From Deltaproteobacteria bacterium (lineage in GTDB: Bacteria; UBA10199; JADFYH01), in contig JADFYH010000018.1 of the NCBI GenBank assembly GCA_015233135.1, positions 1 to 55,613 on the forward strand: DNA of 55,613 nucleotides. Direction: 5' to 3'. The position numbers and the translations under genes were made by a program. Positions 44,249 to 55,613 of the stretch are shown piece by piece. Position 1 is the stretch's first letter. Each line of letters starts with the position of its first letter. The notes beneath the pieces are model-generated. The model was given only the letters and a program-made list of their open reading frames with translations, did not search any database and was not told the origin of the DNA.

Positions 44249-46210
44249 ATGTCCCCCAAAAACGAAAATCCGAGCCCTAAGGATGTTTACATCGTGGTCG
44301 GCAGAAGCAATACGGGCAAAACAACCCTCACGAGACGACTTGCCGGATTTAAAGGAATTACAGAAGAAAAATTCCAGGAGACCCATGTCTTTCTGGAACA
44401 TGGCAAGTTTGAAGGAACCGATGCCTCACTCATTAATACTCCCGGCAACAATTTCACCTTTACCGACAATGAAGATGAACTCATCATCCGCAAGCTTTTC
44501 CTGCAGAACAATGTGAAGGGAATCCTTTTTGTCGCCGATGCAAAATCGCTGGCGAAATCTCTCGCGTTGTTTTTTTATTACCAGGAATTTGGTGTTCCGA
44601 TCCTGTTGAATCTGAACATGACTGACGAAGCCTCCATCCGAGGACTGGTGATTGATACGTACAGGTTAGCCAAGCTCTTGGGAGTTACGGTCAATTCTAC
44701 GGTAGCGATCGAATCCTCTGGCATTTCGCCTATCAAAAATATCACGAAGAGTGAATTGCCTATCGGTAAGCCCATTCGTTACACAGAATCGATCGAGACC
44801 TATCTCAATGAGTTCGAAAAGTTGACGCTTTCCCGGCTCAAGTATCGCCGTCTGCTGGCTTTGGCAGCCCTGACCGGTGATTCGGCGGCCTCTGAGTATA
44901 TCGTACAGGAATGTGGAGAGACTGTCGGGCAAAGTGTTCATCAGCTCGTTGCTAAAACCCGTCAAATATTAGGCGCAAAAAATATCCCGAACCTCTTGAC
45001 GAATATCTACCATTCTGAGGCTGAGCAGATTGCTCGGCAGGTCGTGACGCTGTCTACCGATATCAAGATTCCCTTCATGGATCGCTTGGGAGTTTACAGT
45101 ACGAGGCTTGCTACAGGCATTCCGATTGCTCTTCTGGTTTTCACGGGGCTCTATTTTTTTGTGGGGCGGTTTGGAGCCCAGTTTTTGGTGGATCTTTTAG
45201 AAAAAAAACTTTTTGGGCAGATCATTAATCCGTATATGACTGTGGTCTTTTCGCATATTCCTTCTCCCTTTGTTCAGGAAATGTTCATGGGGAAATACGG
45301 CATCCTCAGCACCGGGATTACACTGGCGTTTGGTATTGTTTTTCCGGTCTTGCTGACATTTTATTTTGCCTTGGGGGTTCTGGAATCGTCCGGATATCTT
45401 GCCCGTCTCACCATTCTTTTTGAACGTTTTTTTAAGAAACTGGGGATGACGGGGAAGGGGATCATTCCGCTGTTGCTGGGTTTTTCCTGTATCACGATGG
45501 CCATCATCACGACGAGAATCTTAGATGGGCGTAAAGAGAAGATCATCGCCAGTGTGCTGCTGGTCCTGGGAATCCCGTGTGCTCCGCTCCTGGGTGTTGC
45601 CCTGGTGTTGTTGTCAAAAATGACAGGGCTGGCTTATGTGCTTTTTTTTGGGATTATTTTTCTGCAAGTGTGTCTGGCGGGTCTTGCGTTGAATCAATTG
45701 ATCAAAAGTCCAGCCTCTGTTTTCTTGTTTGAAGTGCCCTCCATGCGGCTTCCCCATCTAAGATCGTTGATCTCTGGGGCGACCAGAAGGACCTATGGCT
45801 TTTTGGTCGAGGCGGTTCCCATTTTTATTTTGTCCATGTTCAGCATCTTTATCATCGATAAATTGGGGGGCATTGTTCTGCTCGGCCGGATTCTAAAACC
45901 CCTTCTGGTCGGTTTTATCGGACTCCCGGTGGAAAGCGTCACCGTCTTTCTCATGTCCATGATCCGGCGGGAAAGTGGCATTGCGATGTTGTCGCAATAT
46001 GCCGATCTGCAACTCTTTACCCATGTTCAAATATTAATTAACCTGATACTGCTCAGTTTTTGTGTCCCTTGCATCAATGCCATGATCACACTCATCAAAG
46101 AGAGGGGACTCAAGTTGGCCCTGTGTGTTCTGGCCTTTACCATTCCCTATGCGGTCCTGCTGGGTGGATTTTTGAACTGGGTACTGACAAAACTGAACGT
46201 GACGCTGTGA
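44249..46210 (+). CDS. Divergent FeoB-like iron transporter
   Basis: The protein has 653 residues. The N-terminal G domain has an altered P-loop GRSNTGKTT, an altered G3 (NTPGNNF in place of DLPGTY) and a normal G4 LNMTDE. The membrane part has about ten helices with FeoB-type gate regions, but the Cys-containing motifs read GFSCITMAI and GIPCAPLLG where canonical FeoB has GCSVPAI and SCGARLP. It probably moves Fe(II) or another divalent metal, perhaps with unusual nucleotide regulation. FeoB-like proteins (Mad17/Mad30, from memory) occur in magnetosome clusters. It is followed six bases later by a DtxR-FeoA fusion. Confidence 0.8.
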   Translation: MSPKNENPSPKDVYIVVGRSNTGKTTLTRRLAGFKGITEEKFQETHVFLEHGKFEGTDASLINTPGNNFTFTDNEDELIIRKLFLQNNVKGILFVADAKSLAKSLALFFYYQEFGVPILLNLNMTDEASIRGLVIDTYRLAKLLGVTVNSTVAIESSGISPIKNITKSELPIGKPIRYTESIETYLNEFEKLTLSRLKYRRLLALAALTGDSAASEYIVQECGETVGQSVHQLVAKTRQILGAKNIPNLLTNIYHSEAEQIARQVVTLSTDIKIPFMDRLGVYSTRLATGIPIALLVFTGLYFFVGRFGAQFLVDLLEKKLFGQIINPYMTVVFSHIPSPFVQEMFMGKYGILSTGITLAFGIVFPVLLTFYFALGVLESSGYLARLTILFERFFKKLGMTGKGIIPLLLGFSCITMAIITTRILDGRKEKIIASVLLVLGIPCAPLLGVALVLLSKMTGLAYVLFFGIIFLQVCLAGLALNQLIKSPASVFLFEVPSMRLPHLRSLISGATRRTYGFLVEAVPIFILSMFSIFIIDKLGGIVLLGRILKPLLVGFIGLPVESVTVFLMSMIRRESGIAMLSQYADLQLFTHVQILINLILLSFCVPCINAMITLIKERGLKLALCVLAFTIPYAVLLGGFLNWVLTKLNVTL

Positions 46211-46216
46211 GGTCCT

Positions 46217-46864
46217 ATGAGTATTGAAACTGACGAAATTTTAGAATCGATTTACGAGGCTTCTGAAAAAAATGATAATCGGATCGATACGGTTCGAAGT
46301 TTATGCAAGGTTCCGTTGACTCCAGAACTGCTCGGAGATCTGGCCAAAAACGAACTCGTTCATGCCCGCGATGACGATTTGTCCCTGACTACAGCAGGAC
46401 GTGCAGCCGCTGAGAAAATCGTCCGAAGAAAGAGACTTGCACAGGTTCTTCTGTATCACGTATTGAAAATCAAAGACCTTCGCTTGCACGAAATCGCGTG
46501 TGAGTTTGAGCACGTGGTTTTTCCAGAAATTGAAGAAAGTATCTGCACCATGATGGGACATCCGTTGGAATGCCCCTTTGGCACCAAGATTCCTCCGGGT
46601 GATTGTTGCAAGCGCATGCAGTCCGAAGTCCGGCAGGTGGTGAAATCACTGAGTGACATGAATGCTGGAGAAATGGGGAGGATCGCCTATATTCGGACCT
46701 TCAACCAGGTGAACCAGCACAAATTCTGCTCGATGGGATTACGCCCCGGCGTCGTCCTGGAGCTGCACCAAAAATATCCCGCCATCATCGTCCGTATCGA
46801 TCACACCGAAATCGCGATGGATGAAACCGTGGGCCAGGAAATCTACGTCTGGCCGACGACCTAG
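46217..46864 (+). CDS. DtxR-like metalloregulator fused to FeoA domain (degenerate)
   Basis: The protein has 215 residues. The N-terminal winged helix (1-65) is shortened and divergent. The dimerisation/metal domain is recognisable: RLAQVLLYHVLKI, CEFEHVVFPEIEESI and GHPLECPFGTKIPPGDCC, where DtxR proteins have LGHPxxCPHG. Residues about 140-215 are a FeoA/SH3-like domain (AGEMGRIAYI, MGLRPGVVLEL). The extra Cys residues (CTMMGHPLEC, GDCC) may bind iron or an Fe-S cluster. It is cotranscribed with the FeoB-like gene. Confidence 0.75.
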   Translation: MSIETDEILESIYEASEKNDNRIDTVRSLCKVPLTPELLGDLAKNELVHARDDDLSLTTAGRAAAEKIVRRKRLAQVLLYHVLKIKDLRLHEIACEFEHVVFPEIEESICTMMGHPLECPFGTKIPPGDCCKRMQSEVRQVVKSLSDMNAGEMGRIAYIRTFNQVNQHKFCSMGLRPGVVLELHQKYPAIIVRIDHTEIAMDETVGQEIYVWPTT

Positions 46865-47496
46865 CAACACCCGCATCCGCCTGAAAACTCTGGGCTGCGT
46901 GCAGATCGAATCATGTTCATGCCCTCGCAGGCAATCAAGGCTGCAATCACAATTGCAGCGATACTGTCAGCCCACCACAGTGCAGGAAAGATCCAGAAGA
47001 GCAGGCTGCCGATCAGGAGTACCAGGGAGAGTTTAATGCAGGCCAGTGAGCATTGAGAGTCATTCAGGAGCGCGGCGCTATTGAGTAGACGAGCCAGTTT
47101 TCGCTTGGAGATCCAGAGGGCGAACATGAACGATAGGCTCAGGAGTGAAATGATCATGCCCGGTAAGGTGGTGGAGGGATGGCCCTTCTGGAAAAGTTGA
47201 AAGGACGATCCCGTAATTGTCACCAGAGCCAGCAGCAGAAAAAGTATACCCATTGTCAGGCTTATTCTTCTCTCTCTGTCCACAGACAGCCGAATGGATT
47301 GCTCGCTCTCACCGCGCAGCCTCAGGAGTACCAGGAAGGCCGAAGCGACTTCAATGAGACTGTCAATGCCAAAGCCGAAGAGTGACACGGAATCCTCACC
47401 AGCTCCGAAGGCAATCGAAACCGTTCCTTCCACAAGATTGTAAAGGATTGTAAACCACGCAAGAAAAACAGCTTGTCGGATAAGAGATTTGTACAT
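46861..47496 (-). CDS. CDF-like membrane protein lacking the cytoplasmic domain
   Basis: A 211-residue protein with five or six helices. NLVEGTVSIAFG followed by FGIDSLIEVASAF resembles helix 2 of cation diffusion facilitators (the metal-site HxxxD region is represented by GIDSLIE), and NDSQCSLACIKLS with WWADSIAAIVIAAL matches helices 5-6. The C-terminal metal-sensing domain of full CDF proteins is absent; the chain ends GGCGCC, a possible metal-binding tail. A divalent-metal exporter or sensor is likely. It is divergent from the DtxR gene across the 18-bp palindrome, and its stop overlaps the previous gene's stop. Confidence 0.7.
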   Translation of the reverse strand: MYKSLIRQAVFLAWFTILYNLVEGTVSIAFGAGEDSVSLFGFGIDSLIEVASAFLVLLRLRGESEQSIRLSVDRERRISLTMGILFLLLALVTITGSSFQLFQKGHPSTTLPGMIISLLSLSFMFALWISKRKLARLLNSAALLNDSQCSLACIKLSLVLLIGSLLFWIFPALWWADSIAAIVIAALIACEGMNMIRSARSPEFSGGCGCC

Positions 47497-47518
47497 ATTT
47501 TATAGATAAAGCATTTTT

Positions 47519-47536
47519 TGATAGACATGTCTATCA
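47519..47536. promoter_or_regulatory. Perfect 18-bp palindromic operator candidate
   Basis: TGATAGACATGTCTATCA is a perfect inverted repeat (9+9) in the 73-base gap between the divergent CDF-like gene (start 47496) and the DtxR-FeoA gene (start 47570). A TTGATA overlapping its left edge could serve as a -35 box. Size and symmetry fit DtxR/MntR-type operators, so metal-dependent autoregulation by the adjacent regulator is likely (inference). Confidence 0.7.
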
Positions 47537-47569
47537 TTACTAGTTATGACTTATTTTAGGAGAGTGAGC

Positions 47570-48280
47570 ATGAAACCGACCCCATTAACCAGTTCTCTCG
47601 AAGATTATCTCGAAACCATCTACCTTTTGATACGAGAGAAAAAGGTGGCGCGCGTCAGAGATATCTCCCTGGCGCGCGATGTCAATTCTTCATCCGTGTC
47701 GCCGGCGCTCAAGCGACTGGATGAACTGGGTCTGATCCAGCATACGCAGCGGGAATATATCGAACTCACTCCCCAAGGCGAGATCGAAGCCATCCGGATC
47801 TTTTCGCGGCATCGCTTGCTGGTGCATCTCTTCCAAAATGTTTTCAACATGCCCGAATCCACCGCCAAAACTGATGCGTGCGCCATGGAGCATTCTCTTT
47901 CAAGTGAAGGGATGGATCGCCTGGAAAGATTTATTGAATTCACCAAAAATGATCCTGAGGGCATGCGATTGATGGCGAGTTTTCAGCGCTTTGCTACAGC
48001 AAAGGAGAAGGAAACTGGCAACTCGTCTCGTGAAAAAATGAAAATGACCATCGCCGGATTGAAACAGGGTGAGCAGGCAAAGGTTGTTGAGATCCGTGGA
48101 GAAGGTGCAATCCGGCAGCGCTTGCTGGATATGGGCATTATGCCAGATACCCTCATTGGTGTCGAGCGACGGGCGCCTGTCGGAGACCCGATCTGGATCA
48201 AACTGCAGGGAGGCCAGCTTTCGCTACGGCGTAAAGAAGCTGAAGCGGTCGTTGTATTGAAAGAACGGAGTGAAGCATGA
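47570..48280 (+). CDS. DtxR/MntR-family metalloregulator with C-terminal FeoA domain
   Basis: The start is the ATG at 47570 behind TTAGGAGAG; a longer frame adds eight residues. It has 236 residues: winged helix (EDYLETIYLLIRE, then VSPALKRLDELGLIQH), a dimerisation domain with metal ligands (SRHRLLVHLFQNVF, DACAMEHSLS) and a FeoA/SH3 domain (about 160-236: GEQAKVVEIRG, LLDMGIMPDTLIGVERR). It probably represses the feo genes when iron or manganese is sufficient. It overlaps feoB by 4 bases, and a palindrome lies just upstream. Confidence 0.88.
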   Translation: MKPTPLTSSLEDYLETIYLLIREKKVARVRDISLARDVNSSSVSPALKRLDELGLIQHTQREYIELTPQGEIEAIRIFSRHRLLVHLFQNVFNMPESTAKTDACAMEHSLSSEGMDRLERFIEFTKNDPEGMRLMASFQRFATAKEKETGNSSREKMKMTIAGLKQGEQAKVVEIRGEGAIRQRLLDMGIMPDTLIGVERRAPVGDPIWIKLQGGQLSLRRKEAEAVVVLKERSEA

Positions 48281-50373
48281 AGATTGCTTTGGCAGGAAAC
48301 CCGAATTCGGGGAAGACATCCATTTTTAACGTGTTGACCGGCTCGCGCCAACACGTTGGCAACTATCCTGGGGTCACGGTTGAGAAACGTGAGGGGAAAT
48401 ACCAATGGGAAAATGTCAATTATGAGGTCCTGGATCTGCCAGGTACTTACAGCTTGAACGGTTATTCTCCCGAGGAACAAATTGCCCAAAAAGAATTGTT
48501 AAAAAGTAATCACGATCTTGTTGTCTTTGTAGTGGATTCGACGGCACTGAGGCGGAGTCTGGTGTTCTTGTGTCAACTGATGCAACTCGAAAGCAAGATT
48601 GTCCTTTGTTTGAACATGGCCGATGAGGCGGAGAAGTCTGGACAGAAAATCGATCGGGAACTGTTCGAAAAGTTGGTGGGATTTCCTGTCGTGGAAACCG
48701 TTGCCTACAAAGGGATCGGAATTGACGCATTAAAGAAAGCGGTGGCACGGACAGCAGCAACGCCACTGCAAGCAAGCCGCCTGGTCCTTGGCGAACGGCT
48801 TACGGAAGCTGTCCGCAGAATTCGAGAGAGTCTTTCCGGCAAGTTTGGCCACGAACCTGGAGGGAGTTTCTGGCAGTCGGTCCGCCTCCTGCAGGGCGAT
48901 CCGGAGACCATCGAGGCCCTGAAGAAGTACGGGACAGCCGCTTCCGAGACGCTCTCCCTCGTACAAGTCCGGCGTGCAGCCATCGAGGCTGAAACCAGTC
49001 GTGACATTTCGCTTTATATTACTGAACAGTATTATGGTTTTGTGGATGGACTTCTTCGGGAAGTGACCCTGAAAGAACCTCATGAGAATGCCCGAAAGAT
49101 CTCCGATTTTATTGATTCCATTCTGGCCAATCGCGTGTTGGGACTGCCCATATTTTTGGCGATCATGTATGCAACTTTCTGGATTACTTTCACGGTGGGG
49201 GACTATCCGGTGCAGTGGATACAAAATGGTTTTGGATGGTTGTCTATCCACCTCTCCAGCCTCTGGCCCGTCGGTTCCGATTCGGCACTTCGCTCCCTCC
49301 TGGTGGATGGCATTATCGCAGGCGTGGGTGGGGTGGTGGGTTTTGTGCCCAATATCGTGCTCCTCTTTATGTGTCTGGTAATCCTGGAGGACACCGGCTA
49401 CATGGCCCGGGCCGCGTTTTTGATGGACAAGCTCATGCATGTTTTTGGATTGCACGGACGGAGCTTCATCCCCTTGATGAGCGGGTTTGGATGCAGTGTC
49501 CCCGCGATCATGGCCACACGGACACTGGAGAACGAGCGTGACCGTCTCACGACCATGTTGGTACTGCCGCTCATGTCCTGTGGGGCCCGGCTTCCGATTT
49601 GGATGCTCCTCATTCCAGCTTTTTTTGCGCAGAACCAGCGCGCTGCCATGATGTGGGCGATCTATATGATAGGCATTCTCCTGGCCTTTCTGCTGGCCTT
49701 TCTGCTTCGAAGGACCGTCCTCAAGGGAGAGGATGCCCCTTTTGTGATGGAGCTGCCGCCTTACCGGCTGCCGACTCTTCGTGCGGTCATCAACCGGATG
49801 ATCGAGCGTGCGTGGCTGTATCTTCAAAAGGCAGGGACCATCATTCTTGCTGTCTCGATCCTCATGTGGTGTCTGACGAGCTATCCCAAGAAAGAACATT
49901 TCGAGATCGATGCAGAGCTCCAGGCGGGGCGGGTGCAAGCGCTGTCTCCGGAGGAAGTAGAACATCTTCGTGCTGCCGAGTCTCTGACTTACTCCGTAGC
50001 CGGACGTGTTGGTCATCTGATCGAACCCGTCATTCGTCCTCTGGGTTTTGACTGGAAGATCGGCGTGGGACTGATCGGCGCCTTTGTGGCCAAGGAGGTC
50101 TTTGTCGCCCAAATGGGAGTGTTGTATTCACTGGGGGATGTGAAAGAAAACACCAGTAGCCTCCAGGAAAAGCTGCGGAACGCTTATTCGACGCGGGTTG
50201 GATTCTCCCTCATGTTGTATCTGTTGATCGCTACACCCTGCATGGCCACCGTTGCCATCACCCGGCGTGAATCTGGCCGCTGGAAATGGGCCCTGCTTCA
50301 GTTTGGAGGGCTTACGGCAATTGCGTATGTCCTTTCGTTTCTATTTTTCAATATTTCGAGGTTCTTTGTATGA
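48277..50373 (+). CDS. feoB: Ferrous iron transporter FeoB
   Basis: A 698-residue canonical FeoB. G1 is GNPNSGKTS, G3 is DLPGTYSLNGYSPEE and G4 is CLNMAD. The helical GDI-like region follows (about 170-270), then the membrane domain with SGFGCSVPAIMATRTL and MSCGARLPIWMLL gates. It imports Fe(II) across the inner membrane. It is coupled to the DtxR-FeoA gene and to the downstream small Cys-rich protein; there is no free feoA, as its domain is fused to the regulator. Confidence 0.95.
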   Translation: MKIALAGNPNSGKTSIFNVLTGSRQHVGNYPGVTVEKREGKYQWENVNYEVLDLPGTYSLNGYSPEEQIAQKELLKSNHDLVVFVVDSTALRRSLVFLCQLMQLESKIVLCLNMADEAEKSGQKIDRELFEKLVGFPVVETVAYKGIGIDALKKAVARTAATPLQASRLVLGERLTEAVRRIRESLSGKFGHEPGGSFWQSVRLLQGDPETIEALKKYGTAASETLSLVQVRRAAIEAETSRDISLYITEQYYGFVDGLLREVTLKEPHENARKISDFIDSILANRVLGLPIFLAIMYATFWITFTVGDYPVQWIQNGFGWLSIHLSSLWPVGSDSALRSLLVDGIIAGVGGVVGFVPNIVLLFMCLVILEDTGYMARAAFLMDKLMHVFGLHGRSFIPLMSGFGCSVPAIMATRTLENERDRLTTMLVLPLMSCGARLPIWMLLIPAFFAQNQRAAMMWAIYMIGILLAFLLAFLLRRTVLKGEDAPFVMELPPYRLPTLRAVINRMIERAWLYLQKAGTIILAVSILMWCLTSYPKKEHFEIDAELQAGRVQALSPEEVEHLRAAESLTYSVAGRVGHLIEPVIRPLGFDWKIGVGLIGAFVAKEVFVAQMGVLYSLGDVKENTSSLQEKLRNAYSTRVGFSLMLYLLIATPCMATVAITRRESGRWKWALLQFGGLTAIAYVLSFLFFNISRFFV

Positions 50374-50525
50374 CTATAAATATAGATACCGTCGCGGTGA
50401 TTGTTATTGTGGCGCTTACTGCGGTCATTGTTGGCTTCAAGATCTATCGAGCCTTTCGAAAGACGTCTTCCAAGGAGGGAAGCAAATCGGGTTGTAGTGG
50501 CTGTTCAGGATCTTGCCACAAATAA
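50370..50525 (+). CDS. FeoB-associated Cys-rich membrane peptide
   Basis: The ATG at 50370 overlaps the feoB stop (ATGA) and gives 51 residues: one N-terminal helix (VAVIVIVALTAVIVGFKIY), then a basic stretch, then the tail GCSGCSGSCHK. This is the architecture of the FeoB-associated Cys-rich family, found directly after feoB in many bacteria. The Cys tail may bind iron or an Fe-S cluster. Confidence 0.85.
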   Translation: MTINIDTVAVIVIVALTAVIVGFKIYRAFRKTSSKEGSKSGCSGCSGSCHK

Positions 50526-50538
50526 TTGGGAGAAAAAA

Positions 50539-51315
50539 ATGAAATCCTCAAAAATAATCCGTATTGTCATTGTTATGATTATGGGGTTGGCCTCCTGGTT
50601 CTGTGTCAGCTCACCCCTTCATGCGCAGACCGACGAGATTCAGGTGTATACCGGGGAGATCAACAAACCTCGCGAGTTTAGCATTACGCTGCACAATAAT
50701 TTCATTGCGCTGGGCCGGTCGACGCCAGGTTTCCCCGACGGACTTGTCCCTCGGCATTCGCTGAATGGAGTTCCTGAATTTGGTTATGGTGTCACAGACT
50801 GGTTTGAGCTGGGTGCTTATGTCCCTGTTTATTCAATCACCGAAGAGGGTCATGTCCATGTGAATGCCTTCAAACTGCGGACCCTTTTCGTTTCACCTCA
50901 TGCCAACGAGCGAAAATTTTTCTACGGGGCTAATTTTGAGTTTAGCTACAATCGGCCCCAGTGGGATGAGCGTCGCTTTTCCGGCGAAATCCGGCCGATT
51001 ATTGGAACGCGTGTCGGAAAGTTCGATTTTATTTTCAACCCGATCTTCGATTACAACTTTTATGATATCGGTGAGACCTCTTTTGTTCCGGCTCTACGAG
51101 TCGCGTACAACTTGTCTCCAGTCTGGGCCGTGGCGTTAGAGCACTATGCAGACTTTGGTCAGTTCAAGGATTTCGGAAACCAGCAAGCTCAGTCACTATT
51201 TGGGGTGGTTGATTTTAACCCCAAGCCCTACGCTGTAGAATTCGGCATCGGTCATGGCTTCACAGCAGATTCAGATGCCCTGGTCTTGAAGTTGATTGTT
51301 TCTAGAAACTTCTGA
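50539..51315 (+). CDS. Outer-membrane beta-barrel protein
   Basis: I start at the ATG at 50539 (GGGAG upstream), giving 258 residues; a longer frame overlaps the Cys-rich peptide. The signal peptide ends SSPLHAQ. The mature part is made of alternating amphipathic strands (FSITLHNNFIAL, WFELGAYVPVYS, KFFYGANFEFSYN, FDFIFNPIFDYNFY) and ends in a terminal aromatic (SRNF), as expected for a barrel of 10 or 12 strands. It lies last in the FeoB transcription unit, so passage of iron or iron chelates across the outer membrane is possible (inference). Confidence 0.75.
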   Translation: MKSSKIIRIVIVMIMGLASWFCVSSPLHAQTDEIQVYTGEINKPREFSITLHNNFIALGRSTPGFPDGLVPRHSLNGVPEFGYGVTDWFELGAYVPVYSITEEGHVHVNAFKLRTLFVSPHANERKFFYGANFEFSYNRPQWDERRFSGEIRPIIGTRVGKFDFIFNPIFDYNFYDIGETSFVPALRVAYNLSPVWAVALEHYADFGQFKDFGNQQAQSLFGVVDFNPKPYAVEFGIGHGFTADSDALVLKLIVSRNF

Positions 51316-51333
51316 AATCATCCACATTCGTGA

Positions 51334-51558
51334 CTAACTTTCCTCAGCCTTCTCGACCTTCTTGGTCGGAAGATTCTCGCGTTGCATTTGTTTGATTCCC
51401 GCGACAAGTGCCATGATACCGAAGATGAGCAACAAAAGAGGGACGACACCCTTGAAAATATCCACAAAGATATACCACCAACTGACAAAGCCCCAGATAC
51501 TTAGAAGCAGTGCAACAATTCCGCCCAGAATACTGTACATAAACATTTTCCTCCGCAT
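51334..51558 (-). CDS. Small two-helix membrane protein, MamI-like
   Basis: A 74-residue protein with two hydrophobic helices, SILGGIVALLLSIWGFVSWW and VVPLLLLIFGIMALVAGI, a Trp pair between them (SWWYIFVDIFKG) and a short charged tail. From memory this is the pattern of magnetosome protein MamI (about 70-77 residues; WW at the turn, then RG-PLxLLxFGxxALxAG). Generic small membrane proteins share it, so the call is tentative. It is the last gene of the minus-strand actin-like cluster, 14 bases after the Lys-rich protein's stop. Confidence 0.5.
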   Translation of the reverse strand: MRRKMFMYSILGGIVALLLSIWGFVSWWYIFVDIFKGVVPLLLLIFGIMALVAGIKQMQRENLPTKKVEKAEES

Positions 51559-51571
51559 GAAATACTTATAC

Positions 51572-52009
51572 TTAAGTTAAAAAATTATATTTGGAAGGAT
51601 CGATCACCGTTAGATCCTCACTGGTCGCGTCATTTTTAATGACCTCGGCGATGTCCCGACCCAGAGTTAAATAATCTTGGTCATTCTCTAAGGGGTCGGC
51701 TTTTTCAAGAACCCGCTTGAGGGGCTTTATTTTCAAAAAATTTCCCCCTTTGAATTCGCCCAAACGAACTTTGCTGAAACCCCTCTTTAGATTAATCTTT
51801 CCCAAATCTATTTTGCGGCATCGTTGCGCTACCTTCTTAAAGGAGGCCGATACATAGGCGGAGCACTTTCCGGTATAAAAGGAAGTTTTCTTGAGGAAGG
51901 CCTTGGCCCTCTCGACATTCTCATCGATAGCTTTTTCAAGCTCTGTCGGTACAACGATTTCCGAGTTTTTTTCCAGCTCGAGATTTGCTTCTGTGGATTC
52001 TGCAGTCAT
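51572..52009 (-). CDS. Lys-rich protein of unknown function in the actin-like operon
   Basis: The start is the ATG at 52009 behind GAGGG, giving 145 residues; a frame from 52039 adds ten. The N-terminal 45 residues are acidic and helical (ELEKNSEIVVPTELEKAIDE). The middle is strongly basic (KKVAQRCRKIDLGKINLKRG, FLKIKPLKRVLEK), and the C-terminus is acidic. No family is recognised. The basic centre could contact filaments, membranes or DNA. It is 30 bases downstream of the 331-residue actin-like gene. Confidence 0.65.
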   Translation of the reverse strand: MTAESTEANLELEKNSEIVVPTELEKAIDENVERAKAFLKKTSFYTGKCSAYVSASFKKVAQRCRKIDLGKINLKRGFSKVRLGEFKGGNFLKIKPLKRVLEKADPLENDQDYLTLGRDIAEVIKNDATSEDLTVIDPSKYNFLT

Positions 52010-52039
52010 TTTGAAGCCCTCATAAAATCTTGTTCTCAA

Positions 52040-53035
52040 TCAATTGGAAATTAGGTGGTTGACCCTAGCATAGAGCGAAAACTTTTCAATATAAATATCC
52101 TCCATGTCGAGCCCTCCCTCTCTAAGGCTTTCGACAAGCAGCTCTCCCATGAAGGATGCTCCTCCCCCAGTCACCACCATCATCTCTACCCATTGGGTGA
52201 CATTGGTAAAATAAGACACCAGAAAATCAGAAATGAATCCAGTTAGGTTTTTGTTAAGATCCCATCGGGTTTGATCGGTGATTTGTGAAATGTCAACCAG
52301 GTCTCCCGATTCAAATTCCAACTGACTGAGTCCGGCCTCAATCTGCTTGATCACCCAGAAATAGTCCGGCTTTATTTTATTTTCCAGAAGTCGTCCAAAG
52401 ACAATCTTGTAGTAATTCCAAATACCAATATCCAGCAATTGGAAGGATGCAATGCCTTCAATAGAATTGGCGATATAGATCTTTGTCGTATGATAACCAA
52501 TATCCACCACCAGGGCAGATTCGAATTCACTATTGATGGTCCTCAAGAAATTCAGAAGGCTGTCCCCGGCGGTTAGAAGAGCGGTCTGGAGCTTTACGGT
52601 CTTCTGAATCCGCGCCTGATCAAACCCTCGAATCGCCGAGACGGTCAAAACGGACTGATTCAAGTGTTCAACAATTTCCCCCCAGATTTTCTGTTTGTAA
52701 GGGGTCTCAATAAGGATTCCCAGCTCAATCTCTTCATTGTTTGCCGAATAATCAAAGATGATTTTTTTCAGGATCAGCAACCCGTTCAGACAGTCACTGC
52801 CGAAGTCTCCGGCTTTGCCATGTAAAGAATCAAAGCCAGCCTCGTGGCAATCATACCCCACCGAATAGAAGCTGCCTTCCTGTTCGTAGCGGAGCGCCTG
52901 CGATTCGTTCGATTGTGTCCTGGCACTGATCGATGGGAAAAAATACTGACCATAAGACTCAGGGCCACGCCCAGTGACCTCATAGACATGAGTTTTGGTG
53001 TAGAAATCTCCTGGATCGATAAGAATTTTTTTCAC
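52040..53035 (-). CDS. Actin-like ATPase C (ParM/Alp-type)
   Basis: The protein has 331 residues starting at a GTG (53035) whose G is also the last base of the previous stop. Actin-fold motifs: phosphate 1 LIDPGDFYTKTHVYE, phosphate 2 LVVDIGYHTTKIYIA (about 185-199), and the adenosine loop MMVVTGGGASFMGELL (about 285-300). Length and motif spacing fit ParM/Alp-type bacterial actins better than MreB. It probably forms nucleotide-driven filaments. It is clearly different in sequence from the other two actin-like proteins in the operon. Confidence 0.75.
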   Translation of the reverse strand: MKKILIDPGDFYTKTHVYEVTGRGPESYGQYFFPSISARTQSNESQALRYEQEGSFYSVGYDCHEAGFDSLHGKAGDFGSDCLNGLLILKKIIFDYSANNEEIELGILIETPYKQKIWGEIVEHLNQSVLTVSAIRGFDQARIQKTVKLQTALLTAGDSLLNFLRTINSEFESALVVDIGYHTTKIYIANSIEGIASFQLLDIGIWNYYKIVFGRLLENKIKPDYFWVIKQIEAGLSQLEFESGDLVDISQITDQTRWDLNKNLTGFISDFLVSYFTNVTQWVEMMVVTGGGASFMGELLVESLREGGLDMEDIYIEKFSLYARVNHLISN

Positions 53036-53535
53036 TAGAATTGAATTTTTCTCTGCGATTTTCCCATCCTCAAACTCTTATAATTCTTTCGTTCCACGGG
53101 AGCCGCTTCTACCAGGGTGACAAGCTTGGCGGCCTCACTGGGATCCAGTTCCTGTTTTGGGGCAGAAATAGTATTGCCACCCCCAACTCCTCCCACATGA
53201 AGGTTCCGAAGGACATTCTTGATCTCTCGAATATCTTCAAAGATAGGGGTGTTTTCATAATTACCCACGGAGACGGTTTTTGCTTCCATTAGGGCATCCA
53301 GTTGAGAAATCTTATCCTGTGCTGTATCCGAACCGCTCTCCGTTATTTTTTCGACGAGATCCCGCAAGGCCAGAATGGGATCGCGGCCCTTTCGTTTACT
53401 TTTATCCAGGAGCTTCAAGTAAAGCTTCAGCACCAGCTTGAGTATTTTCTTGGAACCCTCCGGGTGGTAGCTGGCTAGTTGGCCGACCAAGTCTTTGAGT
53501 TCGGTATCCATGACTAAAAGATAGGGATTCATCAC
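53035..53535 (-). CDS. Small protein between two actin-like genes, unknown
   Basis: A 166-residue protein (GTG at 53535, or the ATG at 53532), behind AGGAGG and overlapping the upstream stop. The N-terminal half is helical and basic (KKILKLVLKLYLKLLDKSKRKG, part quoted), and the middle acidic/helical (DKISQLDALMEAKT). A Gly-rich linker (HVGGVGGGN) leads to a basic tail (KSLRMGKSQRK). No family is recognised. Position and charge suggest an adaptor or regulator of one of the flanking actin-like proteins, analogous to the small partners of ParM-type actins (inference). Confidence 0.65.
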   Translation of the reverse strand: MMNPYLLVMDTELKDLVGQLASYHPEGSKKILKLVLKLYLKLLDKSKRKGRDPILALRDLVEKITESGSDTAQDKISQLDALMEAKTVSVGNYENTPIFEDIREIKNVLRNLHVGGVGGGNTISAPKQELDPSEAAKLVTLVEAAPVERKNYKSLRMGKSQRKIQF

Positions 53536-54746
53536 GCCTCCTGGGTTTCCTGGATCACTTTGTTCACGCTGAATTTCTGGTCCACATCTCTTCCAAGCTC
53601 AACAGCAATTTGGTCACGCGCCAACAGCATGAAGCCGACACAGTTGATATAGCGGGGATCTACGCCAATTTCGGATGCCGAGATGACTTTTTTGTCTAGC
53701 ACTTCCGGAGACCAGGAAAAATATCGACCAATTTCTTTTTTGATTGAATCAAACAACAGGTGAGCCCCACCCCCGATGACGGTAAAGTAATCGATAGATT
53801 TCCCTTTTCTCGATAGGGCCGCGATGTCACTCGAGAGGCATTCCACAATATGTTTGGCCATGTCCTCGGATTCTCTTTTGAGGAGGGCCGTAAAATCAAA
53901 ATTGCCAGCACCCGGCACTTCAATCATAAACTCCTTGCGCGGCAGCCGCTCCATGATGCGTTGCTCTGGTATTTTAAACTTCTGCCCGCTGGATTCAAAG
54001 ATGACTGTACTGATATTTTTGGTGATGGTGTGGATGCCTTCGGAGATCGAATCGGCCAGGTTCACATCCGCTTCATTGTCGATGATTGGCAGTTTGATCC
54101 AGGTTCCATGCCCCACATCGATGACATAGGTATTGAAAATTTCCATGTTGAACTTCTTGAACAGGAAGGCCATGTAGGCCCCGTAGGCCTGATACTGCAT
54201 GACCGAAAAATCAAGTTCGACTTCAATCTCCATCACCTCATTCAACGCCACGTTCTTCGCCTTGATGCACAGGAACTTCTTGTCATTGCGGACGACAAGT
54301 CTATTCTGAATATAGGTCAGGAATTCCTCGATGACATTTTCGCCATGATGAACGGTGATGCCGAAACCAAACCCTATGTTGGTAATGGGTTTGCCGCGTT
54401 CCTTCATTTCCAGATTTTGTAGAAATACCCCCGCCTTGATGGCCAGAAAAGCGTCTTCGTAATTCTGGATCAGCCCCTTGTTGGTGAACCAGTTGGTCAT
54501 CTCCGAATTTCGGGTCATCGCTCCCACGTAGCGCCAGCAATTCCTGCTGTCGTCAAAGACAGCCAGATTTTTGATCCACCGCGTATCCGCAGTCCGATTC
54601 ATCAGTCTCCAGCTTTTCTCCATTCCTTCAGAAAGGGCCGAGCCAACCACCGAAGAAAAAATTACGATGGTATCTTCACAACAGAATTTGCTTGTGGAAG
54701 TCCCAAGCTCACCGCCTATTGCAACACATTTTTCCAGATCAGCCAT
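53532..54746 (-). CDS. Actin-like ATPase B
   Basis: A 404-residue actin-fold protein. Phosphate 1 is CVAIGGELGTSTSKFCCE, where the usual first Asp is replaced within AIGGELGT; phosphate 2 is YVIDVGHGTWIKLPI (about 208-222); the adenosine loop is FTVIGGGAHLLFDSI (about 322-336). A long insertion between the phosphate motifs and an extended C-terminus set it apart from the 331-residue copy. ATP binding looks possible, but the altered phosphate 1 raises doubt about hydrolysis. It is translationally coupled to the 166-residue protein downstream. Confidence 0.7.
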   Translation of the reverse strand: MADLEKCVAIGGELGTSTSKFCCEDTIVIFSSVVGSALSEGMEKSWRLMNRTADTRWIKNLAVFDDSRNCWRYVGAMTRNSEMTNWFTNKGLIQNYEDAFLAIKAGVFLQNLEMKERGKPITNIGFGFGITVHHGENVIEEFLTYIQNRLVVRNDKKFLCIKAKNVALNEVMEIEVELDFSVMQYQAYGAYMAFLFKKFNMEIFNTYVIDVGHGTWIKLPIIDNEADVNLADSISEGIHTITKNISTVIFESSGQKFKIPEQRIMERLPRKEFMIEVPGAGNFDFTALLKRESEDMAKHIVECLSSDIAALSRKGKSIDYFTVIGGGAHLLFDSIKKEIGRYFSWSPEVLDKKVISASEIGVDPRYINCVGFMLLARDQIAVELGRDVDQKFSVNKVIQETQEA

Positions 54747-54790
54747 ATGTCTCCCGTTTACGGACTATTTATTTGATACGGTATTCTTTT

Positions 54791-55087
54791 TTATTCAAGA
54801 AATTTGAAACCAATGACAATTCCATCTGTTACCCCGCCTTCTTCCACGTATCGGATGATTTCGCCGAGAAGACTTAGGCTGCTGTTGGAGGTAGGATCGA
54901 TCAGCTCGAACTCAAACGGACCTGCACTTAGCTTTTGGACCATTTCAGGGTCAAATCCAGACGGATTGGCCGCCAGCAGAGCATCTTGTGAGATATTTGA
55001 GACGTCGTAGACGCGGTCTTCAGATAAACCCACCTGGGCCTTGATAGAATTGATTCTTAGATCTTTTCTTTGGTCAACTTGTAACAT
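54791..55087 (-). CDS. Small acidic protein of unknown function
   Basis: A 98-residue protein whose ATG overlaps the stop of the upstream actin-like gene (TAATG), so translation is coupled. It is acidic (DRVYDVSNISQDALLAA; EFELIDPTSNSSLSLLGEI) without membrane segments or recognised domain. Its tight coupling makes it a candidate partner of actin-like protein A. Confidence 0.65.
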   Translation of the reverse strand: MLQVDQRKDLRINSIKAQVGLSEDRVYDVSNISQDALLAANPSGFDPEMVQKLSAGPFEFELIDPTSNSSLSLLGEIIRYVEEGGVTDGIVIGFKFLE

Positions 55088-55613
55088 TAGACACCCGCAC
55101 TGATCAGGGCCCCTCGGGCTGTTGCCCTCATTGGATCTGCGGCGATACGAACCTCCGAGATCTGGATGGGGAGAGAGACCTGTTTTAGGATTTTTTCGAA
55201 TTTGACTTTGAAGCCATTGGGCATACAGGTTCCTCCCGCCACAACGATGGGGATCGCCTGATGAAGTTTGGGCATATTCTGAGCCTGTGAAAGTACGGCG
55301 GAGAGTTGGCTTAAGACGCTCAAAATCAAATCGTCATAATAGATTTCAAAAGCGTTCTCCATCTTGTTCCGGGGAGGTCTTGAGAAATCGAGCGTTTCTT
55401 CTTTAAGCACCCTTACTCGGTTTCGTGTCTCATTCACCACTCGCGCGACGCTCAAGTCGATGTCATCGCCACCCTTGGGAACGCTGAAAACGATGATAGG
55501 TACGGACAGGAAGGAGAGACAAACATTGCACATGCCGCCGCCCATGCTGATGCCGATGCCCGTGTAGTTGTCTTGGGAGAGTTCGGAGAGAACCACCGCC
55601 ATACCTTCGGTAA
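55087..55613 (-). CDS. Actin-like ATPase A, 5' end beyond window
   Basis: The frame stays open to the right edge (reading TEGMAVVLSE at its first visible codons), so at least 174 C-terminal residues are present and the true start lies outside. It shows phosphate 2 GIGISMGGGMCNVCLSF, a downstream block PKGGDDIDLSVARVVNETR and the adenosine loop PIVVAGGTCMPNGFK. The motif EGMAVxxSE just before phosphate 2 belongs to a family of MreB/MamK/Hsp70-fold actins found in Gram-negative bacteria and archaea. It could correspond to MamK or Mad28 in magnetosome clusters (not provable here). It probably heads the minus-strand operon visible here. Confidence 0.7.
   Translation of the reverse strand, partial: TEGMAVVLSELSQDNYTGIGISMGGGMCNVCLSFLSVPIIVFSVPKGGDDIDLSVARVVNETRNRVRVLKEETLDFSRPPRNKMENAFEIYYDDLILSVLSQLSAVLSQAQNMPKLHQAIPIVVAGGTCMPNGFKVKFEKILKQVSLPIQISEVRIAADPMRATARGALISAGV

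Follow-up and report, generated by a model that had tools for sequence, protein, structure and literature searches.

In magnetosome gene clusters, the actin gene mamK was previously treated as a universal marker of magnetotaxis. A 2026 paper reports that it is not universally required: none of 21 public Bdellovibrionota magnetosome metagenome-assembled genomes (MAGs) carries a canonical mamK, which implied that another gene is involved, and mad28 was suggested (PMC13200544). Mad28 is a second actin type, marked by a serine in the phosphate-2 motif (S-x-G-x-G) and by a connecting-1 glutamate without proline (PMC10653835). In the phylum UBA10199, the MAG nXX_bin1 is magnetotactic and has two cluster types, and one further magnetotactic genome, nDJH6_bin20, has been named (PMC7602337). 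Here we describe a 55,613-nucleotide contig of a UBA10199 bacterium (JADFYH010000018.1; the whole contig is hereafter the window), the right end of which is one broken edge of a magnetosome gene cluster. Besides mamI and a truncated mad28, this edge encodes Alp404 and Alp331, which apparently represent new families of putative actin-like ATPases.

The window is an entire contig (C18) of a genome of 2.6 Mb (98% complete, 64 contigs; G000) in UBA10199, the same class as nXX_bin1 (our genome G044, of which contig C210 is JADGCS010000083.1). The contig ends inside mad28, which breaks the gene cluster off at the window's right end. Leftwards from this end run seven minus-strand genes separated by one-base overlaps or short gaps, which likely form one operon and would be carried by a single transcript; promoter and terminator scans of the locus gave counts within about 2 standard deviations of those in shuffled sequences. 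The genes are:

55087..55613, minus strand: mad28, C-terminal 174 residues, cut by the contig end; Pfam Volactin (E 8.7e-48) and phosphate-2 motif
54791..55087, minus strand: gene for a 98-residue protein, PilZ-like by eye only; its start overlaps the mad28 stop by one base
53532..54746, minus strand: Alp404; Pfam MreB-like_C, Foldseek match to Alp7A (5ec0)
53035..53532, minus strand: p166, lying between both actin genes; its start is coupled to the Alp404 stop (GTGATG, read directly)
52040..53035, minus strand: Alp331; start overlaps the p166 stop (TAGTG, read directly); actin-fold model
51572..52009, minus strand: p155; ATG start at 52009, read from the sequence
51334..51558, minus strand: mamI, 74 residues, the last operon gene; NCBIfam MamI model NF040963

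An earlier note on this DNA had proposed that its right end was the edge of a magnetosome-type cluster or an undescribed iron-linked multi-actin system, and had pointed to a MamI-like protein of 74 residues. Judged by its sequence, this protein is a true MamI relative: it is about 70 residues long, has two hydrophobic stretches, and matched the MamI model at 64.8 bits (E 4.6e-18), under the curated equivalog cut-off of 80 bits, while the same model had matches in 0/14 control genomes. No other mam genes are visible in the window because it is an entire contig. They were found elsewhere in the genome, on contig C23, where profile searches detected MamA (168 bits), MamQ (67 bits), MamB (231 bits) and MamM (209 bits), along with two MamI/MamL proteins, MamE/O-type proteases, PDZ proteins and magnetochrome-like CXXCH motifs read from the sequence, making the window mamI the third MamI-family gene of this genome. 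All Mam proteins of C23 fell short of the curated equivalog cut-offs, as divergent members would be expected to; the Mam models were nevertheless the best among specific families, and the proteases matched DegP/HtrA as well as the MamE model. Relatives have orthologues of the window genes beside mamL, mamI, mamA and mamQ and beside the pair of FeoB and DtxR-FeoA genes. In three loci (L017, L018 and L021) no more than a few kb separate the Alp404-p166-Alp331 module from mamL/I, in two others it is near FeoB/MamI (L019 and L022, where orthologues of the window mamI stand beside FeoB), and in genome G069 Alp404 shares a contig with mamQ/E/I/A/B/M. The proposed cluster edge was thereby borne out.

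This cluster is akin to the magnetosome clusters (mamAB-type plus mad) of deep-branching magnetotactic bacteria in its mamL, I, A, Q, B, E/O and M genes, its divergent FeoB with DtxR/FeoA, and mad28, and gene order is conserved between the source genome, nXX_bin1 (with two mam clusters, on contigs C189 and C171) and Bdellovibrionota. It differs from them in that no mamK was detected and in carrying the Alp404-p166-Alp331-p155 module.

Three actin-like proteins had been pointed out beforehand, and all three were recovered (52040-53035, 53532-54746 and, as a C-terminal half, 55087-55611). The last is probably of the Mad28 type, as indicated by its motifs, family and context. It is 65-66% identical to a protein of nXX_bin1 and has SMGGG at phosphate 2; most full-length relatives have SMGAG plus NEG/SEG, such that the Mad28-type proteins found here mostly carry serine in place of the phosphate-2 aspartate. 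The truncated actin thus resembles Mad28 of Desulfamplus BW-1 and Solidesulfovibrio RS-1 in the phosphate-2 serine, in the connecting-1 glutamate without proline (in its full-length relatives) and in its location within a magnetosome operon. All of the Mad28-type proteins (8/8) matched the Pfam Volactin model, a likeness to haloarchaeal volactin/salactin, from which they differ in being bacterial and encoded in magnetosome operons; in profile comparisons Mad28 also matched MreB. We considered MamK as an identity for this volactin-like protein and rejected it (MamK model E 0.073; serine in the phosphate-2 motif). A volactin/Mad28-like protein (38% identity; G008:C88:2617-3924, L007) is also encoded in a UBA10199 genome without MamI, and the volactin/Mad28 family is therefore wider than the magnetotactic bacteria.

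The other two actins form a separate, apparently undescribed pair. The AlphaFold model of Alp331 (predicted local distance difference test score, pLDDT, 84.5; predicted template modelling score 0.79) was closest in Foldseek to ParM R1 (4a61; E 1.2e-15) and resembled archaeal Ta0583 (TM-score 0.68), supporting an actin fold. For Alp404, the predicted structure is weak (pLDDT 60), with Alp7A (5ec0; E 2.6e-11) as the best Foldseek match, ParM also among the matches, and the MamK structure 5ljw only at rank 19; this model, taken with the Pfam MreB-like C-terminal domain matched in 11/11 members, likewise supports a predicted actin fold. Every member of both families retains the phosphate-2 aspartate (Alp404 D210, Alp331 D178) and the adenosine motif GGG, and profile comparison by hhalign found them related to each other (93.6%, E 2e-7). 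Profile searches of the PDB with Alp404 and Alp331 matched no actin, so that only structure and Pfam domains tie the two to known actins. Fold, profiles and co-occurrence together showed that Alp404 and Alp331 are distinct members of the actin superfamily and that their evolution was that of a pair.

Comparison with described actins set the pair apart from each of them. From Mad28 the two proteins differ in retaining the phosphate-2 aspartate, and profile comparison found no detectable similarity of either to it. From MamK they differ in that its model, NF040964, matched neither at E up to 1, and in their folds, which are closer to ParM/Alp. ParM, Alp7A and Ta0583 provide the closest solved folds and Pfam C-terminal domains; here the differences are a sequence identity of 10-16%, the lack of plasmid and phage relatives, and co-inheritance with magnetosome genes.

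An Alp404 pattern scan of 84,980 species genomes retrieved 11 loci with identities of 65-69%, nXX_bin1 among them. The order Alp404-p166-Alp331 is found in 10/11 of these, the exception being a contig that ends within Alp404 (L024), and Alp331 has 10 orthologues at 29-39% identity. In most module genomes, Alp404 (65-69%) compares with 25-34% for MamA, 28-37% for MamQ, 33-41% for MamB and 28-35% for MamM, and is the best-conserved among the cluster proteins compared. The deep branches of the Alp404 tree had supports of 41/68, giving no decision between transfer and vertical descent. One marine Bdellovibrionota genome also encodes a divergent second Alp404 paralogue (310 bits, in a 685-residue open frame; G070:C37:44894-46009, L075), some 12 kb away from its main copy.

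The small genes of the operon recur with the actins. Orthologues of p166, for which no Pfam family scored above chance, lie between both actins in 10/10 complete loci. p155 is fast-evolving and has a conserved C-terminal motif, (F/Y)Y..LGKD(I/L)..L.K.D..SDNLTIID.SK; its orthologues come after Alp331 in 7 loci, and the orthologue in nXX_bin1 (L015 8138-9127; L006 12183-13148) has many KPPA/VEVKPP-type repeats before this motif, a linker-like expansion. The gene of the 98-residue protein, which had no Pfam match, has orthologues adjoining mad28 in L015, L017, L018 and L021.

Alp404 occurred strictly together with MamI. Two of 46 UBA10199 genomes (G000 and G044) and 8 of 369 Bdellovibrionota genomes carry Alp404, and the same genomes carry a clear MamI, with one further MamI match in each group (22 and 25 bits, respectively); across these 415 genomes, Alp404 and clear MamI were therefore found in an identical set of 10, and Alp404 was absent from the other 405. 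As G000 and G044 are the sole genomes of the 46 with a clear MamI, G000 may be the named magnetotactic genome nDJH6_bin20. Two more Alp404 genomes, G061 and G069, neither of which was returned in the Bdellovibrionota search, also have MamI, the latter being the sole Alp404 genome among 395 sampled from a larger phylum. The Alp404 genomes span at least three phyla, and the module, being present in UBA10199 too, is not specific to Bdellovibrionota. PMC13200544 marks genes conserved only in magnetotactic Bdellovibrionota, unnamed in its text, and these may include Alp404 and Alp331.

In none of the 12 Alp404 genomes did we detect a canonical MamK, matches to the MamK model reaching at most 88 bits as compared with a cut-off of 400; the 14 such matches extracted, nearly all of at least 60 bits, begin with MreB-type sequence. 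The source genome likewise has no recognisable MamK, its best match to the MamK model being MreB (72 bits). Of the two actins that the earlier note expected in such a cluster, a protein of the Mad28 type is thus present, and no MamK was recognised.

Because Alp404 and Alp331 are found only in magnetic bacteria that lack the usual MamK, they may do the job of MamK. In the model we propose, the two proteins would polymerise in an ATP-dependent manner, perhaps into a filament that is mixed or two-stranded, and would stand in for MamK in aligning magnetosomes and distributing them; the likeness to MamK would lie in this job, an ATP-dependent filament for magnetosome order. p166 and p155 might couple the filaments to one another or to magnetosomes, Mad28 could anchor the chain at the cell's curved side, by analogy with strain RS-1 (PMC12748827), and the divergent FeoB with its DtxR-FeoA partner would, from their families, supply and control iron for the mineral. 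We consider this reading as a whole, a cluster edge with an operon for a filament pair in the stead of MamK, small-protein couplers, a positioning Mad28 and iron genes, to be probable. The broader evolutionary claim, that in UBA10199, in Bdellovibrionota and in one or more further phyla a two-component actin (Alp404 and Alp331, with p166 and p155 as adaptors) replaced MamK, and that this magnetoskeleton, possibly a hetero-filament, evolved independently from a ParM/Alp-like ancestor, stands in our judgement at about even chances.

Several observations weigh against a filament pair in place of MamK. In two marine Bdellovibrionota (G068 and G070) the module and the mam genes lie on different contigs. 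In the source genome itself C18 and C23 are unjoined in the assembly, though mamI sits in the window operon; since C18 breaks inside mad28, and the N-terminal half of mad28 has no other match in the assembly, the link between the two contigs is unproven there. MamI was the sole marker for the genome-wide co-occurrence, and the genomes are phylogenetically non-independent, such that 10/10 overstates the independent support. A mamK gene could have been lost to gaps in a MAG, but not plausibly across all 12 genomes. The function of the pair is one that we infer, the Alp404 model is weak, and mad28 is the replacement proposed in PMC13200544.

That last proposal leads to the alternative that survives best, namely that Mad28 alone replaces MamK and the pair serves another magnetosome task, such as segregation at division or the positioning of a sensory two-component array. 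mad28 is indeed part of the window operon and lies beside the module in L015, L017, L018, L021, L023 and L025, Mad28 gives partial rescue of a mamK mutant (PMC10653835) and governs where the chain lies in RS-1 (PMC12748827), and several histidine kinases and response regulators adjoin the module. However, Mad28 mostly lacks the phosphate-2 aspartate, and elsewhere it coexists with MamK in a distinct role (PMC12748827), so that its presence alone does not make MamK dispensable; we regard this alternative as unlikely, while giving it more weight than any other.

Much less probable is a ParMRC-like partition system, of plasmid or chromosomal DNA, sitting in the cluster by chance. Both folds are closest to ParM, Alp7A and Ta0583, and the order of a first actin and then a small gene recalls that of parM and parR, but the small gene, p166, resembles no Pfam family above chance, no relative of Alp404 or Alp331 was found in 72,556 plasmids and 50,697 phages, and the co-occurrence of Alp404 with MamI is strict. 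The earlier note had taken a grouping of the actins with plasmid ParM/Alp as a sign against a magnetosome cluster; two of the three do group so by fold, yet these two track magnetosome genes perfectly, and the test was therefore mis-specified. Least probable of all is a general cytoskeletal module whose co-occurrence reflects shared ancestry or shared transfer with no functional link, for which the separate contigs in G068 and G070 and a 21-kb contig of nXX_bin1 (L006) with no mam gene detected in its first 20 kb can be cited, against a distribution over at least three phyla, an operon with mamI in the window, few-kb linkage in several other genomes, and the absence of Alp404 from 405 related genomes without clear MamI.

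The Alp404-Alp331 pair is thus a second candidate replacement for MamK beside mad28, and the locus offers concrete candidates for the alignment of magnetosomes in mamK-less bacteria, in the form of two actin families strictly accompanying magnetosome genes. Confirmation of that function would mean that more than a single type of actin has been used by bacteria to make a magnetosome cytoskeleton. In these lineages Alp404, being the most conserved of the cluster proteins compared, is also better suited as a marker for searches than mamA, mamB, mamM or mamQ. We found no paper joining 'magnetosome' with 'ParM-like' in a literature search that left preprints and most subscription papers uncovered, so that an earlier description is possible.

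To the left of the operon lie iron genes and their neighbours:

44249..46210, plus strand: divergent FeoB; Pfam FeoB_N and Gate; TIGR00437 233 bits (cut-off 315.65); Mad17/Mad30-like position
46217..46864, plus strand: DtxR C-domain/FeoA fusion, directly after the divergent FeoB; Pfam Fe_dep_repr_C and FeoA
46861..47496, minus strand: cation diffusion facilitator (CDF) protein, 211 residues, transmembrane domain only; Pfam Cation_efflux 58.8 bits, E 8.3e-16, residues 15-199
47546..50525, plus strand: second feo set, consisting of DtxR-FeoA, canonical FeoB and a FeoB-associated Cys-rich protein; Pfam, NCBIfam
47546-48280, plus strand: second DtxR-FeoA fusion of that set; Pfam
48277-50373, plus strand: canonical FeoB of that set; TIGR00437 586 bits
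50539..51315, plus strand: signal-peptide protein of about 259 residues, possible outer-membrane barrel; read from the sequence

The two unequal FeoB proteins, the two DtxR-FeoA fusions and the CDF-like protein were all as the earlier note had described them. Orthologues of the divergent FeoB are 38-42% identical in the magnetosome clusters of nXX_bin1 and Bdellovibrionota, and an orthologue of the first fusion comes after FeoB in L018, L019, L021 and L065. The second feo set (its DtxR-FeoA, canonical FeoB and the barrel candidate) had no best matches in related magnetosome clusters, and may serve ordinary iron uptake. For the CDF protein, too, no match was found in those clusters, and a role as a magnetosome component is unproven; MamB and MamM were rejected as its identity, both being encoded on C23. 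Its C-terminus is Cys-rich (GGCGCC), and its gene and that of DtxR-FeoA are arranged tail to tail. Of the outer-membrane barrel in the earlier note, the signal-peptide protein (50539-51315) was upheld; Pfam and NCBIfam searches matched no family, the barrel fold is plausible from the sequence, and membership in the cluster is unproven. The GC content is higher in the right-hand region (0.485) than in the left part of the window (0.445), as had been noticed, and the mam region of C23 is likewise GC-richer (0.513 vs 0.455). The difference within the window, although real, is slight and speaks only weakly for transfer; as proof of transfer we rejected it, the gap of 0.485 vs 0.445 being too small.

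Further genes accompany the module in relatives. In all loci but L016 it is preceded by an AAA ATPase gene, either immediately or with a response-regulator gene in between; the N-terminal part of this AAA-domain ATPase (L015 1053-3056 and orthologues) is variable. It could be Mad27 (about 508 residues in strain FSS-1), and an assignment of the AAA or ParA neighbours to Mad27/Mad29 was not achieved. Directly upstream of Alp404, a response regulator plus long coiled-coil protein is encoded in L015 (3165-5309), L019 (7986-9998) and L024 (7893-9878), perhaps an equivalent of the coiled-coil proteins Mad25/Mad26. Histidine kinase and response regulator genes, up to seven in a row, flank the module in L016 (1066-9191), L020 (10872-19119) and L022 (14422-21174), and PMC13200544 mentions 'atypical two-component systems' near the cluster. 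Finally, at the left contig end (85-1092), the window encodes a protein whose C-terminal part reads as TIR-domain-like.

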